Shown here: piece after piece, positions 30,101 to 50,181 of the stretch
Layout: each line of letters starts with the position of its first letter
Numbering within the stretch: the stretch's first letter is position 1
Origin: Streptomyces sp. TG1A-60
GTDB lineage: Bacteria; Actinomycetota; Actinomycetes; Streptomycetales; Streptomycetaceae
Assembly (NCBI RefSeq): GCF_037201975.1
Contig: NZ_CP147520.1
Span: 930,001 to 994,000, forward strand
Direction of reading: 5' to 3'
DNA length: 64,000 nt
Translations under genes and position numbers: made by a program
The notes under the pieces: model-generated
The model's database searches: none
Seen by the model: the letters and a program-made list of their open reading frames with translations, nothing else
Told to the model about the DNA's origin: nothing

Positions 30101-30276
30101 CGTGCCACCCTCGATCTCTCACGCACAGGCGGTGCGGGCTGCGGCCGGTACGGCGCAAAGGGCCGCCAAAACGTCGAGGTCAGGTTTCTGGCCGGCCTCC
30201 AGGGGCGACTCTTTTCGGACTTTCCCGCGGCGGCCGTCAGGACACGGCGTGGACCGGTCCCGGCGACCCTATGCTT

Positions 30277-30290
30277 CTACGTGTCTGTAG
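30277..30290. promoter_or_regulatory. BlaI-type operator 1 (before the HHH-like gene)
   Basis: CTACGTGTCTGTAG is an imperfect 14-bp palindrome 76 bases before the start codon. It matches operators 2 and 3 in this island and the TACA...TGTA half-sites of BlaI/MecI operators. The blaI gene lies 3.7 kb downstream. Confidence 0.65.
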
Positions 30291-30365
30291 AGGCAACGGG
30301 CGACTCCTACGGGTGTCCCCGGCAGCCGCACGCCTCTCACCTGCTCGCACGACGGAAGAGGACGC

Positions 30366-30584
30366 ATGGCTTCGATCGACCTGGACAAGGTGCTCGACAA
30401 CGCGTGGGTGGACAAGAACCTGACCGAGATCCTGGCCGCGCCCGTGGGCGCGCTCAAGGGGGTCTCCGAGCGCGACGGCGAGTTGCTGCAGGAGGCGTTC
30501 GGGGTCAAGACCGTGGCCGACCTGGCCGACTTGAAGTACGTCCGCTGGGCGCAGGCGCTGGCCGCCCTCGACGCGGCCCGGTAG
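30366..30584 (+). CDS. Small helix-hairpin-helix-like protein
   Basis: The 72-residue protein begins MASIDLDKVLDNAWVDKNLT, and its second half, GVSERDGELLQEAFGVKTVA then DLADLKYVRWAQALAAL, has the alternation of a helix-hairpin-helix (SAM-like) domain. The palindromic operator lies upstream, and Spo0M follows 96 bases later with no obvious terminator between, so they may form one operon. DNA binding or protein docking are the usual roles of this fold; neither is shown. Confidence 0.7.
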   Translation: MASIDLDKVLDNAWVDKNLTEILAAPVGALKGVSERDGELLQEAFGVKTVADLADLKYVRWAQALAALDAAR

Positions 30585-30680
30585 CCACCTCGCACACGAC
30601 CCGCGGTGCCGCCGCACCCACACGGGCCACGCGGCACCGCCCTCACGAAACACACGCACGTATAAGGAGTGGACGCCACG

Positions 30681-31679
30681 ATGGTGTTCAAACGACTGCT
30701 CGGCTCGCTCGGCGTGGGCGGCCCCACGGTCGACACGGTCCTCGATCCCGGTGCGGTCCGTCCCGGGGGCGCACTGACCGGACAGGTCCATCTCAAGGGC
30801 GGTGACGCCGACTTCGACATCGAGCACATCACGCTGGAGCTGATGGCGCGGGTCGAGGCCGAGCACGAGGAGGGCGAGAGCGAGGGTGTCGCCGTCTTCG
30901 AACGGTTCATCGTCGGCGGCGGCTTCCGGCTCGCTGCGGGCGAGGTACGGAGTGTTCCGTTCAACGGGATGCTGCCGTGGGAGACCCCGGTCACCGAGCT
31001 GTACGGGCAGGGGCTGGGCATCGTCCTCGGGGTACGCACCGAGCTGGCGGTGGCCGGCGCGAAGGACAAGGGCGACCTCGACCAGCTGACCGTGGCCCCG
31101 CTGCCCGTACAGGAGGCGATCCTCGAAGCCCTCGGCCAACTCGGCTTCGGCTTCAAGTCCGCCGATCTGGAGTTCGGACATATCCGTGGCACCGGCCAGC
31201 AACTGCCCTTCTACCAGGAGATCGAGCTCACCCCCTCCCCGCAGTACGCGCACCAGGCCAACGAGATCGAGCTGACCTTCCTCGCCACCCCGGGCGGCAT
31301 GGAGGTGATCCTGGAGGCCGACAAGCGCGGCGGCCTGTTCTCCGAAGGACACGACACGGTCACCCGCTTCACCGTCTCCCACGACGGGATCGAGCACCAG
31401 GACTGGAACACCCTGGTCGACGGATGGATCCGGCAGCTGGTCGAACACCGGGCGCCGCACGGCTCGCACGGGCACGAAGGCCACTACGGGCACCACAGCG
31501 GTCACGGCCACGACGACCACCACCACGGCGGTCACCGTTCCGGTCCCGGCATGGGCACCGCCGTCGCCGCGGGTGCGGCCGGGCTCGCGGTCGGTGTCGT
31601 CGGGGGCATGGTCGCGGCCGAAGTCGTCGACGAGGTGGGGGACTTCTTCGAAGGCGACGAGGAGGAAGAAGAGGGCTGA
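30681..31679 (+). CDS. Spo0M-like arrestin-fold protein with His-rich tail
   Basis: A 332-residue sporulation-control protein of the SpoOM family: VFKRLLGSLGVGGPTVDTVL, GALTGQVHLKGGDADFDIEH (arrestin-like beta sandwich) and the second lobe ending FTVSHDGIEHQDWNTLVDGW. Beyond ~255 the family domain ends. A His/Gly run (HGHEGHYGHHSGHGHDDHHH, ~260-280) follows, then a Gly/Ala hydrophobic segment AVAAGAAGLAVGVVGGMVAA and an acidic tail. The run should bind metal ions, and the hydrophobic segment could insert in membrane. ATG 30681 follows AAGGAG. Confidence 0.88.
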   Translation: MVFKRLLGSLGVGGPTVDTVLDPGAVRPGGALTGQVHLKGGDADFDIEHITLELMARVEAEHEEGESEGVAVFERFIVGGGFRLAAGEVRSVPFNGMLPWETPVTELYGQGLGIVLGVRTELAVAGAKDKGDLDQLTVAPLPVQEAILEALGQLGFGFKSADLEFGHIRGTGQQLPFYQEIELTPSPQYAHQANEIELTFLATPGGMEVILEADKRGGLFSEGHDTVTRFTVSHDGIEHQDWNTLVDGWIRQLVEHRAPHGSHGHEGHYGHHSGHGHDDHHHGGHRSGPGMGTAVAAGAAGLAVGVVGGMVAAEVVDEVGDFFEGDEEEEEG

Positions 31680-31682
31680 CTA

Positions 31683-31759
31683 GCCGACACGGGCCGGGAG
31701 GCGCGGTCAGCTGCCGACTGCCCGCAGAAGGCGATCGGCGTCTCCCGGCCCGTGTCGGC
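31683..31759. terminator. Long perfect inverted repeat, 18-bp arms
   Basis: GCCGACACGGGCCGGGAG (31683-31700) pairs perfectly with CTCCCGGCCCGTGTCGGC (31742-31759) across a 41-base spacer that can fold internally. It starts 3 bases after the Spo0M stop. It is a strong terminator or RNA-stabilising hairpin, or a mobile-element-like inverted repeat. Confidence 0.6.
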
Positions 31760-32065
31760 CGTCCGAGCCGCGACCGGGGTCCGCGGGCACGGCGGATCCT
31801 GGTCGTGGCGAACCCGCACGACCTGCCCGCCTCGTCTTCGATGCGAGCCTCCCCGCGGGAGACCTCCACGACGGTCCGGGAGTCGTCGGCCTTGGTGAGG
31901 GCCGGTCTGTAGCGGGGTGGCACGGCCACAGGGACGCGGTCGCGCCGACATCACCAACCGGCTGGGTACCTTCCGGGTCCGCCGTCGCGGGCCCCGCAGG
32001 ACGGTCGGCGACTCACTGCCGAACATCTGGAAATGCCGGGAACTTATCCGCCGAGCCGCTAGTTT

Positions 32066-32079
32066 CTACATTGCTGTAG
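32066..32079. promoter_or_regulatory. BlaI-type operator 2 (before terB)
   Basis: CTACATTGCTGTAG lies 62 bases before the terB start, flanked by TTT and ATATTTT: an AT-rich island in high-GC DNA, as expected for a promoter overlapped by an operator. Confidence 0.7.
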
Positions 32080-32141
32080 ATATTTTCGGGAGTCCGAACC
32101 GCTACGAGCGGGCCGGGCCCAACCGACCACATGGAGTTCTC

Positions 32142-32597
32142 ATGGCCCTCTGGGACCGTCTCAAGGAGTCCGCGTCGACGATGCAGACCCAGCTGATGGC
32201 GAAGAAGAACGACCTCAAGAGTGGCGCCTTCCGCGACGCGAGCATGGCGATGTGCGCGCTCGTCGCCGCGGCTGACGGCACCATCGACCCTTCTGAGCGA
32301 CAGCGAGTGGCCCAACTGATCGCCACCAACGAGGTCTTGCAGAACTTCGACGCCATGGATCTTCAGCGGCGCTTCGACGAGAACCTGAACAAGCTCACCG
32401 CCGACTTCGCCTTCGGCAAGGTCAGCGTCCTGCAGGAAGTCGCCAAGGCGAAGAAGAAGCCCGCCGAGGCCCGCGCCGTCATCCAGATCGGCATCGTCAT
32501 CGGTGGTGCCGACGGCGACTTCGACAAGACCGAGCAGGCCGTCGTCCGAGAAGCCTGTTTCACCCTCGACCTGCCGCCGCACGAGTTCGACCTCTGA
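32142..32597 (+). CDS. terB: TerB-family tellurite-resistance protein
   Basis: The 151-residue all-helical protein matches TerB in length and pattern: MALWDRLKESASTMQTQLMA, AMCALVAAADGTIDPSERQR and GIVIGGADGDFDKTEQAVVR, the last two holding the paired acidic loops that bind metal in TerB. In Ter systems TerB works at the membrane with TerC and with TerD-family Ca2+-binding proteins, and responds to envelope, phage and oxidant stress. GGAG lies 5 bases before ATG. Operator 2 precedes it, and it is monocistronic before a terminator. terC is not in the window. Confidence 0.92.
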   Translation: MALWDRLKESASTMQTQLMAKKNDLKSGAFRDASMAMCALVAAADGTIDPSERQRVAQLIATNEVLQNFDAMDLQRRFDENLNKLTADFAFGKVSVLQEVAKAKKKPAEARAVIQIGIVIGGADGDFDKTEQAVVREACFTLDLPPHEFDL

Positions 32598-32694
32598 TCG
32601 TCCCACAGCCGCTCCGTCGGCCTCCGACACGAACGGTCACCGGAGTTCGTCGAGGTCGAGGTCCGACCCGACGACCAGGGTCACCCGGGCTCGG

Positions 32695-32745
32695 CTTGAC
32701 CTTCAACCCCGACAAGAGACGATCTCGTCGGGGTTGAACGTCAAG
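32695..32745. terminator. Bidirectional terminator between terB and the M56 gene
   Basis: Outer arms CTTGAC/GTCAAG and inner arms TTCAACCCCGAC/GTCGGGGTTGAA are separated by a single C-C mismatch, so 18 of 19 pairs form around a GAGA/TCTC core with a CGA loop. The hairpin starts 98 bases past the terB stop and lies directly against the M56 stop, so it serves both convergent genes. Confidence 0.8.
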
Positions 32746-32746
32746 T

Positions 32747-33679
32747 TCAGAGAGGCGTCGCCGCGTACAGGATGAGCGCCATCGTCACCGCGGAGTTCGC
32801 GGACGACAGCGCGGACACGACGGTGCCCGCAGCCGCGCCCCAGGCGGCCAGACCCACACTCGTGAACACCGATGGCCAGCTTCGCATCGCGGGCGCGGGG
32901 CCGAGCAGGGCGGCCACCCGGCGCGGCACCGGCCCCGGGGCCGCCAAGCCCGCGAGCGTCCCCACCGGGGTACCCCGGGAGACCAGTGCGGCCTTGCCGA
33001 TCGCGCACGCAACCGCCCTGCGACTGCCGACGGTCCGGGCCGCCTCCTCGTCCGCCCACCGTTCCGTGGTGTAGGACACGGCCGTGTGCAGGGGCCGCAG
33101 GAACGGGTTTGCGTGTGCGGCCAGTTGGACGGCGAGCAGGAACCGGTGGTGGCGGGCGCCCAGATGGGCCCGCTCATGGGCGAACAGGGCGCGCCGCTCG
33201 GTCGGTTCGAGGCAGGACAGCATGCCGGTGGTCACCACCACCCGACCCCGCCGCCTCCCGGGGAGCGCGTACGCGTACGGCACCTCGTCGGGCAGTACGG
33301 CCACCTCCGTGCCCGGCAGCCCGGCCAGGGCCCGGTGGGCCCCACGGCGGACCCGACCGTGCCGCCACCCTGTTCGACCACAGGCCAGGAGCACCGCGAT
33401 CAGCGCCGGGATGGCCAGTCTCCCGGCGACCTCGTCATACGGAACCGCTTCGCGCACCTCGGGGTCCGACCAGCCGTCGGGCAGCGGGTTGCCCGGCAGT
33501 TGGGCGGTACCGACCACCATCAGCAGCCCCAGAGACACCGTGCTGCACGCCGCCATCACCACGGCCACGCCGGTCAGCAGTCGAGTGGCGGTCCGTGGAT
33601 GCAGCCGCTGCTCGGCCAGACGCGCGATCGGCCACGTCGTGAACGGCAGGACCAGCGGCAGAAAGACGAACACCCCCAT
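32747..33679 (-). CDS. M56-family (BlaR1-like) membrane metallopeptidase
   Basis: A 310-residue integral membrane protease with N-terminal helices (~2-20, 35-58), a third near 85-100, the cytoplasmic zinc site FAHERAHLGARHH (His168, Glu169, His172), and C-terminal helices. There is no extracellular beta-lactam sensor domain as in BlaR1, so the trigger must differ. M56 peptidases cleave the BlaI-type repressor when a signal arrives. It starts 6 bases after blaI, as in other blaI-M56 operons of actinomycetes. Confidence 0.88.
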   Translation of the reverse strand: MGVFVFLPLVLPFTTWPIARLAEQRLHPRTATRLLTGVAVVMAACSTVSLGLLMVVGTAQLPGNPLPDGWSDPEVREAVPYDEVAGRLAIPALIAVLLACGRTGWRHGRVRRGAHRALAGLPGTEVAVLPDEVPYAYALPGRRRGRVVVTTGMLSCLEPTERRALFAHERAHLGARHHRFLLAVQLAAHANPFLRPLHTAVSYTTERWADEEAARTVGSRRAVACAIGKAALVSRGTPVGTLAGLAAPGPVPRRVAALLGPAPAMRSWPSVFTSVGLAAWGAAAGTVVSALSSANSAVTMALILYAATPL

Positions 33680-33685
33680 GAGGCC

Positions 33686-34069
33686 TCAGTCTTCCCCTTC
33701 GCCCTTCGGCTGACCCAACAGTTCCCGCAGGAGCCGTTCGTCGTCCGGGTCCAGGGAGGTGACGAAGCTGGCCAGCACCGCCTCGCGGTCGCTCTGGCCG
33801 TCGAGCACCTTGTGCATCTTGTGCGCGGCCAGGCCCGCCTGGTCGGAGGCCGAGGTCCACGCGAAGGAGCGGCCGGCGCGCTCGCGGGTCACCGCGCCCT
33901 TGGCCAGAAGCCGGGTCAGGATCGTGATCACGGTCGTGTAGGCGAGGTCCCCACCGAGCCTCTCCTGCACCCATCCCGCGCTCTTGGGGCCGTCCGCCTC
34001 GCGCAGCGCGGACAGGACGAGCGCCTCCAGCTCACCCTGCCCCCGCCGGGGACGCTGATGGTCCGTCAC
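33686..34069 (-). CDS. blaI: BlaI/MecI/CopY-family transcriptional repressor
   Basis: The 127-residue repressor reads RGQGELEALVLSALREADGP, GWVQERLGGDLAYTTVITIL (recognition helix: AYTTVITILTRL), AKGAVTRERAGRSFAWT, then a C-terminal dimer domain. It would bind a palindrome and be inactivated by the adjacent M56 protease. GTG 34069, preceded by GGAG, is chosen over an upstream ATG that would add 20 unrelated residues. The three CTAC...GTAG palindromes in this island are its likely targets. Confidence 0.9.
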   Translation of the reverse strand: MTDHQRPRRGQGELEALVLSALREADGPKSAGWVQERLGGDLAYTTVITILTRLLAKGAVTRERAGRSFAWTSASDQAGLAAHKMHKVLDGQSDREAVLASFVTSLDPDDERLLRELLGQPKGEGED

Positions 34070-34296
34070 ACCCTGTCTCCCTTCCGCTGACCCCGAATCC
34101 ACGGGTGGTCCATCGTATAGACGCCCCACAGCCGGCCGCCGCGGAGCGGCCTGACCGCCGCAGTCCCCACTTCGCCGTCCCGCCCGGACGCGGCCCGGGC
34201 GGCCTCATCGGTACGCCATCCTCACCGCACCGACCGCTTCCCCGCCAGACACGGCACAGCCGAACCGCGCGGGCCGGACAAACCCTTCCCCTTTTT

Positions 34297-34310
34297 CTAC
34301 AGTGCTGTAG
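34297..34310. promoter_or_regulatory. BlaI-type operator 3 (before terD)
   Basis: CTACAGTGCTGTAG, a perfect palindrome apart from its central TG, sits in an AT-rich patch (TTTTTC...TTTTTAC) 69 bases before the terD start. It is also 228 bases upstream of the divergent blaI start. Confidence 0.75.
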
Positions 34311-34379
34311 TTTTTACTCCGGGTCCCTCCGGATCCGACTGACGCGTCAAGACATCAAGGCTTCGAGAAGGAGTACGCA

Positions 34380-34955
34380 GTGGGAGTTTCCCTGTCCAAG
34401 GGCGGCAACGTCTCGCTCAGCAAAGAGGCACCGGGCCTGACGGCCGTCCTGGTCGGTCTGGGCTGGGACGTGCGCACGACCACCGGCACCGACTACGACC
34501 TCGACGCCTCGGCACTACTGCTCGACGCCGCCGGGAAGGTCCCCTCCGACGGGCACTTCGTCTTCTACAACAACCTCACCAGCCCGGACGGTTCGGTCGA
34601 GCACACCGGCGACAACCTCACCGGTGAGGGGGAGGGCGACGACGAGGTGGTCAAGGTGAACCTCGCGGCCGTGCCCGCCGAGATCCACCGGATCGTCTTC
34701 CCGGTCTCGATCCACGACGCCGCGAACCGCGGCCAGAGCTTCGGCCAGGTCCGCGGCGCCTTCATCCGCGTCGTGAACCAGGCGGGCGGCGCCGAGATCG
34801 CCCGCTACGACCTGTCCGAGGACGCCGCCACCGAGACCGCGATGGTCTTCGGCGAGCTGTACCGCAACGACGCCGAGTGGAAGTTCCGCGCCGTCGGACA
34901 GGGTTACGCCTCGGGGCTGACCGGGATCGCCTCCGACTTCGGCGTCAACGTCTGA
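34380..34955 (+). CDS. terD: TerD-family tellurium-resistance protein
   Basis: A 191-residue TerD domain: [46 protein letters not shown] (Ca2+ ligands in the DYDLDAS element) and [20 protein letters not shown], the second Ca2+ loop. TerD proteins bind calcium and are induced by oxidant or tellurite stress; streptomycetes carry many paralogues. GTG 34380 follows AAGGAG. It is divergent from blaI with operator 3 in between, and is terminated by a hairpin. Confidence 0.95.
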
Positions 34956-35317: not shown

Positions 35318-35905
35318 ATGTCGGTCAACATGACCAAGGGGCAGCAGATCAGCCTGAACAAGGCCGACGGCACCGCCCTGGCCTCGGTCCGGATGGGCCT
35401 CGGCTGGCAGGCAGCGCCCCGCAAGGGTTTCCTCGCCAAGCTCACCGGTGGCGGAGCCGACATCGACCTGGATGCCTCGGCCGTCCTTTTCGCCGCCGAC
35501 CAGCCCACGGACGTCGTCTTCTTCCAGCATCTGGTCAGCGACGACGGCTCCGTCCGGCACACGGGCGACAACCTCACCGGCGGAGCCGGCGCCGGAGGCG
35601 ACGACGAAGTCATCCTCGTCGACCTGGCCCGCGTGCCCCCGCACATCGACCAGATCGTCTTCACCGTCAACTCCTTCACCGGTCAGACCTTCGGCGAAGT
35701 GCAGAACGCCTTCTGCCGCCTGGTCGACGAGACGACGGGAGCCGAACTGGCCCGCTACACCCTCACCGGCGGCGGCAACCACACCGCCCAGATCATGGCC
35801 AAGGTCCACCGCGCCGACGGCGGCTGGCAGATGAAGGCCATCGGCGAACCCGCCACCGGCCGCACCTTCCAGGACCTGCTGCCGTTCATCTCCACTCACC
35901 TGTAG
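35318..35905 (+). CDS. TerD-family tellurium-resistance protein (second copy)
   Basis: A 195-residue TerD paralogue: SVNMTKGQQISLNKADGTAL, VRMGLGWQAAPRKGFLAKLT, then DIDLDASAVLFAADQ and [20 protein letters not shown] with both Ca2+ sites. It differs from the first copy by a short basic insert (RKGFLAKLTGGG) before the first site, as in the TerZ-like or CABP-like branch. ATG 35318 follows AAGGAG by 11 bases. No CTACA-type palindrome precedes it closely; it may be read from its own promoter in 34999-35300. Confidence 0.93.
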   Translation: MSVNMTKGQQISLNKADGTALASVRMGLGWQAAPRKGFLAKLTGGGADIDLDASAVLFAADQPTDVVFFQHLVSDDGSVRHTGDNLTGGAGAGGDDEVILVDLARVPPHIDQIVFTVNSFTGQTFGEVQNAFCRLVDETTGAELARYTLTGGGNHTAQIMAKVHRADGGWQMKAIGEPATGRTFQDLLPFISTHL

Positions 35906-35983
35906 ACCAGGGCCCCCGCACCCGGCAGCCACCAACGGGCTCGGGCCATCCGGGCCGGGCCACACGCAGAAGACAGGACCCGC

Positions 35984-36277
35984 ATGTTCGGACTGAGCGA
36001 ACTCGCCGTCATCCTCATCGTCGTCATAGCCGTCCTCGCCGCCAAGAAGCTCCCCGACCTCGCCCGCTCGGCAGGCAAGTCCGCCCGCATCCTCAAAGCC
36101 GAGGCCCGTGCGATGAACAACGACGAGACCCAGGCGGACGCGGCTCCCCAGGCCGTCCCGGGCGAGACCACCATCTCGGTCGGCGGCGCGGCGGGAACCT
36201 CCGAGCAGGACGGCAGACCGCCCCAGAACACGCCGACTACGGCCGGGACCAGGAGCACGCCCGCACCGCCGGAGTAG
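35984..36277 (+). CDS. TatA/TatE-family twin-arginine translocase protein
   Basis: A 97-residue protein starting MFGLSELAVILIVVIAVLAA, then KKLPDLARSAGKSARILKAE: membrane helix plus amphipathic helix, the TatA pattern (FGxxE, KLPxLxRxxGK). The remaining ~55 residues are disordered Pro/Thr/Ala. It starts 78 bases after the second terD and may share its transcript. It is probably a paralogue of the main tatA, which is not near here. Confidence 0.88.
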   Translation: MFGLSELAVILIVVIAVLAAKKLPDLARSAGKSARILKAEARAMNNDETQADAAPQAVPGETTISVGGAAGTSEQDGRPPQNTPTTAGTRSTPAPPE

Positions 36278-49741: not shown

Positions 49742-50181
49742 CGCACGGCCTCCGTACCGTCGTCGGCTGCCGCGGCAGCGTTCACGAGGCGGGCCAAGTG
49801 ACCGTGCAGGGACTGGGCGAACCCCTCCGCCCGCCCCAACTGTCGGCGCAGATCCTCGCACCGCGCGTCCGCTTCGACCCAGTACTTGCGCAACTGTTCC
49901 ACCAATTTCTCGTGTGCTTGCCCGTCGTTCTCCGGCAGAGGTCCCCCACCCTCGGGCAGCTTCTCCAGCAGGACCCGTACGTCCTCCAGACAGAAGCCCA
50001 GTGGCCGCATCCGACGTACCAGCGCCAGCCGACGCACCTCGGCCTCGGCGTAGAGGCGGAAGCCGCCCATACTGCGCTCACTGGGCGCCACCACGCCTAC
50101 GTCCTCGTAGTGGCGGATCGTCCGCAGGGAAAGCCCCGTCCGTTCGGACACCTCGCCGATCTGCATCAGCCTTCCGGTCAC
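49738..50181 (-). CDS. MerR-family transcriptional regulator coupled to prfC
   Basis: The 147-residue regulator starts MQIGEVSERTGLSLRTIRHY a few residues in, with the wing GGFRLYAEAEVRRLALVRRM and a C-terminal coiled coil (LVEQLRKYWVEADARCEDLR). It resembles the sulP-linked MerR across the DNA-binding domain. Start GTG 50181 is behind GAGG; ATG 50166 is the alternative. A 26-bp palindrome 48 bases upstream is probably its own operator. Confidence 0.9.
   Translation of the reverse strand: MTGRLMQIGEVSERTGLSLRTIRHYEDVGVVAPSERSMGGFRLYAEAEVRRLALVRRMRPLGFCLEDVRVLLEKLPEGGGPLPENDGQAHEKLVEQLRKYWVEADARCEDLRRQLGRAEGFAQSLHGHLARLVNAAAAADDGTEAVR

Follow-up and report, generated by a model that had tools for sequence, protein, structure and literature searches.

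The terB-terD locus and its palindromes

The window analysed here is the whole 64-kb stretch shown above, positions 930001-994000 of the 7.83-Mb single-contig genome of Streptomyces sp. TG1A-60. It contains a cluster of genes encoding a Spo0M family protein, TerB and two TerD proteins, with the genes of a BlaI-type repressor and a membrane zinc metalloprotease lying between terB and terD. Three short palindromes with CTAC and GTAG arms precede the HHH-like/spo0M, terB and terD genes, and an earlier note on this DNA had proposed that they are operators of the neighbouring BlaI and define a single tellurite/stress regulon. The genes and palindromes concerned are given below, with mismatches counted against the 16-mer TCTACA-N4-TGTAGA.

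30276..30291: candidate operator 1, before the HHH-like/spo0M genes; TCTACGTGTCTGTAGA, one mismatch
30366..30584, plus strand: HHH-like small protein, 72 aa, first gene of the spo0M transcript (label from the earlier note)
30681..31679, plus strand: Spo0M family protein (PF07070, E 3.4e-78)
32065..32080: candidate operator 2, before terB; TCTACATTGCTGTAGA, exact
32142..32597, plus strand: TerB (PF05099, E 5.6e-27)
32747..33679, minus strand: membrane M48/M56-type zinc metalloprotease, 310 aa, with HERAH (PF01435)
33686..34069, minus strand: BlaI-type repressor (PF03965, E 2e-23), its start taken as the GTG at 34069
34296..34311: candidate operator 3, between blaI and terD; TCTACAGTGCTGTAGT, one mismatch
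34380..34955, plus strand: TerD (PF02342, E 2.5e-85)
35318..35905, plus strand: second TerD (TerD2), downstream of terD (PF02342, E 5.4e-46)

A pattern search of the window found the three 14-mers exactly where they had been reported (30277, 32066 and 34297), their ends lying 75, 62 and 69 bp before the start codons of the HHH-like gene (30366), terB (32142) and terD (34380), respectively. Overall, CTAC-N6-GTAG occurs at four places in the 64-kb window against 0.07 expected, a number reached in none of 100 shuffles. With the pattern CTAC-N4-CTGTAG and up to one mismatch, six strand-wise matches were obtained at four places, the fourth being 35892, against 0.83 expected. The remaining CTAC-N6-GTAG palindrome, at 50097-50110 (CTACGTCCTCGTAG), has a GC-rich centre and does not fit the 16-mer. 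The HHH-like protein had no match in Pfam (threshold 0.001) or NCBIfam (0.1). As for TerD, the closest relatives with a name come almost exclusively from Streptomyces.

Conservation of the operator in Streptomyces

The comparison was based on 80 terB loci of the genus, representing most but not all of the copies found, on which the window proteins were mapped. When CTAC-N6-GTAG was counted within 250 bp upstream of each gene, the window's own locus included, it was found in 69 of 82 copies of terB, 19 of 21 of terD, all six of HHH, 11 of 24 of Spo0M and 30 of 43 of BlaI, and in none of the 40 copies of the protease gene; TerD2 had it in a single copy of seven, the other six being without an operator of their own. 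Among spacers of 0 to 13 between CTAC and GTAG, only a spacer of six recurs, the others being limited to 0 to 3 stray cases per gene and a spacer of four to none at all. The consensus TCTACA-N4-TGTAGA was derived from 142 distinct sites, of which 139 have a T preceding the left arm and 138 an A following the right one; CTAC and GTAG themselves were fixed in the search pattern. In 134 contexts within three mismatches, collected without imposed letters, only single-side changes occurred and not one compensatory pair, a pattern that fits a DNA operator and not an RNA stem.

A class-wide terB search provided further copies, which were kept out of the per-genome BlaI/operator counts given below. 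The site was present within one mismatch in the new same-genus copies L360, L361, L363, L365, L368, L369 and L370, and only at 3, 4, 5 and 6 mismatches in L362, L364, L374 and L378, respectively. The terB loci of other families, 14 in number (L371-L373, L375-L377, L379-L386), had no site within four mismatches of the 16-mer.

A scan of the whole genome was suggested in the earlier note as a check of the motif. The bare arms CTAC-N6-GTAG were not enriched (24 sites, the reversed control having 50), nor were CTACA-N4-TGTAG with up to one mismatch (20 against 38) or the 16-mer with two mismatches (44 against 48), and the bare arms were dropped as the motif defining a regulon. The 16-mer with at most one mismatch was found at just four sites in the whole genome, three of which are the window palindromes. 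The lack of enrichment of bare arms and looser matches would suit palindromes arising in promoters by chance, a reading that is refuted by the conservation over 80 loci with a single spacer and by the window statistics, and to which we give practically no weight. As judged from sequence comparison, the three palindromes are real and are instances of one 16-bp operator.

Position relative to promoters

When sequences were aligned on the site, each gene class displayed its own conserved -10-like hexamer touching it. The corresponding elements of the window are as follows.

30270..30275, plus strand: TATGCT, -10 candidate immediately adjacent to operator 1
32039..32064, plus strand: GGAAC-N18-GTT, promoter element resembling those of ECF sigma factors, with its end at operator 2
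32060..32065, plus strand: TAGTTT, candidate -10 hexamer with a one-base overlap with operator 2
34308..34313, plus strand: TAGTTT, -10 candidate of terD, which overlaps operator 3 in its 3' arm

In the Spo0M/HHH set, the TATGCT hexamer is represented by T at -6 in 22, A at -5 in 21 and T at -1 in 21 of 24 sequences. Upstream of terB, a hexamer of the form TA-N2-TT (TAGCTT, TAGTTT) ends in the first T of the site (T at -5 and A at -4 in 54 of 72 each, T at -1 in 64 and T at 0 in all 72). At terD, TAG(A/T)TT overlaps the right arm and is continued after it by T16 (34 of 37) and T17 (35 of 37). These hexamers are probably promoter -10 elements, and their position suggests that a protein bound at the site would block the promoter.

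The spacing of GGAAC-N18-GTT is one that we take to be typical of ECF sigma factors such as SigR. The element was rejected as a common feature, being found in 22 of 74 terB promoters with an operator and in 5 of 13 without. In S. avermitilis, a tellurium resistance gene is part of the regulon predicted for one sigma factor, the -10 element being unlike TANNNT (PMC8780764; this report, like the others cited below, is drawn on in excerpt).

The iron-responsive element proposed at terD

A site of this kind has been read differently in S. viridochromogenes, where an iron-responsive element (IRE) with the motif CAGUG was predicted 64 bp before the tellurium-resistance gene SSQG_00725; the protein increased 1.62-fold after methyl viologen, and the excerpt leaves binding of the aconitase AcnA for later work (PMC3912134). 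In S. viridochromogenes DSM 40736 (L287), the palindrome CTACAGTGCTGTAG ends 58 bp before terD (at 6001 of L287) and its CAGTG ends at 64 bp; the published IRE before SSQG_00725 coincides with this BlaI-type palindrome. From this distance and the place near 0.78 Mb, we infer that terD of this strain is SSQG_00725, the SSQG tags being presumably those of DSM 40736. The BlaI of this strain has 87% identity to that of the window.

The palindrome could accordingly be imagined to act as RNA, in the form of an IRE hairpin that exposes a CAGUG loop in the terD leader and is bound by AcnA. The matching 64-bp distance, the published prediction with its methyl viologen response and the presence of CAGTG on the sense strand in 24 of the 37 terD sites all speak for such a hairpin, but the same loop is found in just 32 of the 142 sites over all genes, including 6 of 72 at terB, none of 15 at spo0M and 1 of 9 at HHH. 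The arms, moreover, are conserved in their letters, and the terD arm overlaps the -10-like hexamer, which would place the site upstream of the transcription start. The hairpin was set aside on the variability of its loop and the absence of compensatory changes, and we hold it to be very unlikely. A DNA operator is offered here as a different reading of the published element.

Association with a subgroup of BlaI repressors

Which protein reads the sites was approached in 150 genomes of the genus, a BlaI being considered related to that of the window at E of at most 1e-15. Exact CTACA-N4-TGTAG was found in 108 of the 119 genomes with a related BlaI and in 4 of the 31 without, the corresponding values for the reversed control being 56 of 119 and 20 of 31. 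Since some PF03965 protein is present in 30 of these 31 genomes, it is the BlaI subgroup that matters. Group A was delimited by a best E of at most 1e-32, G070 being set aside because the tree placed its BlaI in group B. Counted per genome (103 terB copies in 92 genomes), a terB operator within two mismatches was present in 76 of the 77 genomes with a group-A BlaI and in 3 of the 15 without, random 150-bp stretches containing one in 17 of 1200 cases. The three latter genomes are G011 (two mismatches), G102 (a draft in 1420 contigs) and G136, which is complete and a true exception.

In the paralogous BlaI group B (46-57% identical), 16 of 22 blaI genes are preceded by a site no more than 80 bp from the start. 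None of the group-B loci contains a ter or Spo0M gene within the examined stretch. Nine of the 22 (L217-L222, L224, L226, L267) belong to loci chosen because a site had been seen nearby; among the other 13, chosen for BlaI alone, nine have a site within one mismatch. In the widespread group C, which is nearer to the other BlaI of the genome (L016/L017), no site was found within 80 bp of the blaI start in any of 27 cases. In the recognition-helix region, the consensus TILTRL is common to groups A and B and absent from C. Group-A blaI genes have a site within 150 bp in 36 of 88 cases and within 80 bp in 8 of 88, in many cases in an upstream region that also belongs to a divergent gene.

Two further tallies were made. 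Among the terB copies from the class-wide search that have a BlaI in view (L363, L364, L365, L368, L370), the operator was present in four of five. Among 80 named TerD loci, 21 had both a site and a linked BlaI, 53 neither, five a site only and one a BlaI only; this tally is not an independent test, since paralogous TerD genes probably account for many of the 53.

Besides the genome-wide counts given above, several observations weigh against assigning the sites to BlaI. The complete genome G136 (L135) has exact sites before terB and spo0M, and no group-A/B BlaI was found in it. G045, the only group-A genome without a terB operator within two mismatches, has one with three, and in L364 (G304) terB lies beside a 79% identical BlaI with no operator within three mismatches. 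In the window itself, the -10-like TACGAT located about 45-50 bp before the blaI start is not overlapped by an operator, the nearest site being 227 bp before this start, and no exact site lies near several of the blaI-protease pairs found apart from ter genes (L194, L197, L200, L202-L204, L206, L208, L209), so that autoregulation by group-A BlaI is not established. The operator has a centre exceeding that of published BlaI operators by 2 bp. Finally, a terB gene tree with 83 rows shows nine changes in the presence of BlaI and seven in that of the operator, supported branches providing just two to three independent contrasts that are nearly always in the same direction and too few for significance; the co-occurrence of BlaI and operator partly reflects shared ancestry.

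Four of these points, namely the window blaI without an overlapping site, G136, the unusual spacing and the unlinked blaI genes without a nearby site, would also suit a repressor or activator that is encoded elsewhere and reads the sites, BlaI being a mere neighbour. This explanation has to contend with sites that track the BlaI subgroup across genomes and, in loci devoid of ter genes, precede the blaI genes of group B, and we regard it as improbable. It is very probable that the adjacent BlaI acts as the regulator.

Comparison with known repressor systems

As in the BlaI/MecI-BlaR1/MecR1 systems of Staphylococcus aureus and Bacillus licheniformis, a Penicillinase_R repressor is found beside a membrane zinc metalloprotease, with inverted TACA/TGTA half-sites and an operator in a divergent intergenic region. 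In contrast to these systems, no beta-lactam sensor domain was matched in the protease, no beta-lactamase or penicillin-binding protein gene is among the targets, which would be terB, terD, HHH-spo0M and probably the LCP and TatA-like genes described below, and the operators lie next to -10-like hexamers. The operators of BlaI, MecI and CopY are given as TACANNTGTA (PMC7253601, PMC5772342), and the OP1 probe of B. licheniformis contains TTACATATGTAA (PMC3305447). The view that the arms are of BlaI/MecI type thus holds for the half-sites and fails for the centre, which is TACA-N4-TGTA here and TACA-N2-TGTA in the published operators, suggesting a second operator spacing in the BlaI family.

The CopY/CopR copper repressors belong to the same superfamily and share the half-site (TACANNTGTA, PMC7253601). 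In contrast to them, the window BlaI contains no cysteine, and hence no C-terminal CxC copper motif, the centre of its presumed operator is two bases longer, and its score with the CopY/TcrY family model TIGR02698 is 24.3 against a cut-off of 121.95. Another actinobacterial BlaI repressor, that of Mycobacterium tuberculosis (Rv1846c), has a membrane protease partner. The bound promoters named in the excerpted report are those of Rv1303, beside ATP synthase genes, and Rv2151c, with no Ter/Spo0M gene named there (PMC12565901). Clostridium thermocellum BlaI_0696 and BlaI_1845 offer a parallel in their small BlaI regulons, autoregulation and paired inverted repeats, and differ in their half-sites (GTCTAT/GACTAT) and targets (PMC8457756). 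Upstream of the group-B blaI genes of L221, L222, L224 and L214, two operator-like palindromes are found 19 bp apart, as if two dimers were placed side by side, an arrangement alike in plan to these C. thermocellum repeats.

The membrane protease and the proposed mechanism

The metalloprotease domain of BlaR1 is oriented towards the cytoplasm, and beta-lactam is bound by a sensor domain (PMC9834060). The earlier note had described a blaI-M56 pair whose protease is devoid of such a sensor. The Penicillinase_R winged-helix domain of the window BlaI, over the cut-off, agrees with this description, as does the protease, for which PF01435 was the only Pfam match in 310 aa and no C-terminal beta-lactam-binding sensor domain was matched; the assignment itself is to be amended, PF01435 being M48 and not M56. 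Hydropathy indicates hydrophobic stretches near residues 1-22, 31-61, 82-103 and 271-304, the topology being deduced from hydropathy and alignment. Residues H168, E169, H172, E206 and D210 are invariant in 15 orthologues, HERAH corresponding to the HExxH motif. Equally invariant in all 15 are residues 57-68 (GTAQLPGNPLPD) and 70-72, in a region between the second and third hydrophobic stretches. Residues 57-72 presumably form an outer loop, which would be a candidate sensing part. The protease gene lies beside blaI in most of the mapped terB loci.

The genomic comparison supports the operators, their place by -10-like hexamers and their association with one BlaI subgroup; repression, release by the protease and the nature of the signal would be added as follows. 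A BlaI dimer on the -10/+1 region of HHH-spo0M, terB and terD(-terD2) would keep these genes off. The membrane metalloprotease, having no beta-lactam sensor domain, would sense a disturbance of the envelope, most likely via the conserved loop 57-72, and would inactivate BlaI, the whole set being then switched on together. We consider it probable that the palindromes are operators of the BlaI encoded between terB and terD and that they function in such a circuit.

A variant compatible with the operator part is that a small ligand or a peptidoglycan fragment, together with general proteolysis, releases BlaI, the adjacent protease having no direct part in this, or that BlaI also activates. A peptidoglycan dipeptide is reported to inactivate BlaI in B. 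licheniformis (PMC3305447). As the protease gene adjoins blaI in most mapped loci and its HExxH motif is invariant in the 15 orthologues, this variant appears rather unlikely.

Extent and theme of the regulon

Downstream of terD2 is a possible further member of the set proposed to be controlled by BlaI.

35891..35906: weak fourth candidate operator, before the TatA-like gene; TCCACTCACCTGTAGA, two mismatches
35984..36277, plus strand: TatA-like small membrane protein (PF02416, TatA_B_E)

NCBIfam TatA models scored under their cut-offs with this protein. Among the fetched loci, TatA-like homologues have an operator within one mismatch in the preceding 180 bp in 17 of 48 cases. Outside the window, the fourth genome site within one mismatch of the 16-mer, at 7370545, precedes the first start codon of an LCP-like gene by about 84 bp; a stop codon within the site closes the reading frame of this gene, and the site consequently lies upstream of it. 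The product has 70% identity over 214 residues to an LCP protein (PF03816) of the relative G109, whose gene has an exact operator and lies beside a blaI-protease pair. Operators within one mismatch were also found in 300 bp at seven of 16 further loci whose LCP homologues are at least 56% identical, two of the seven being partial matches. Just before the site at 7370545 is an open frame (G000:C1:7370128-7370388; L399:229-489) with an end similar to the C-terminus of the BlaI of the window, apparently left over from a second BlaI locus. Homologues of an Ion_trans channel, of which none was found in the window, have an operator within one mismatch in four of four loci. Two of the four came from loci chosen for a BlaI or TerB, L227 was chosen for its site and L298 was reached via TerD; three were noticed through the site.

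Because the common theme of these targets is the membrane and the cell wall, the regulon would be one of envelope stress rather than of tellurite. Spo0M of B. subtilis is partly under the stress factor sigma-W (PMC5325327). The proposal that the palindromes are operators of the neighbouring BlaI within one regulon is thus backed by conservation, co-occurrence and the sites of paralogous blaI genes, its tellurite focus giving way to envelope stress. Like the earlier note, which knew of no such regulon, a search of the open-access literature, which leaves most subscription papers outside its coverage, gave no description of it. We lean, by a modest margin over even chances, towards a genus-wide stress regulon in which Ter proteins, Spo0M, a TatA-like protein, an ion channel and LCP cell-wall enzymes are coupled through a BlaI whose operator is widened and a membrane protease that lacks a sensor, the trigger of the chromosomal Ter proteins being an envelope signal read by the invariant loop of the protease. 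BlaI-protease circuits would then extend beyond beta-lactams to a set of envelope genes. With a defined operator and candidates for both the repressor and the sensor-protease, the induction of the chromosomal TerB/TerD proteins can be tested directly in harmless Streptomyces.

Two minor observations can be added. Some CNNM genes have an operator at 150-280 bp, which is less convincing, and two bare-arm palindromes stand 15 bp apart outside the window, at G000:C1:912297-912325.

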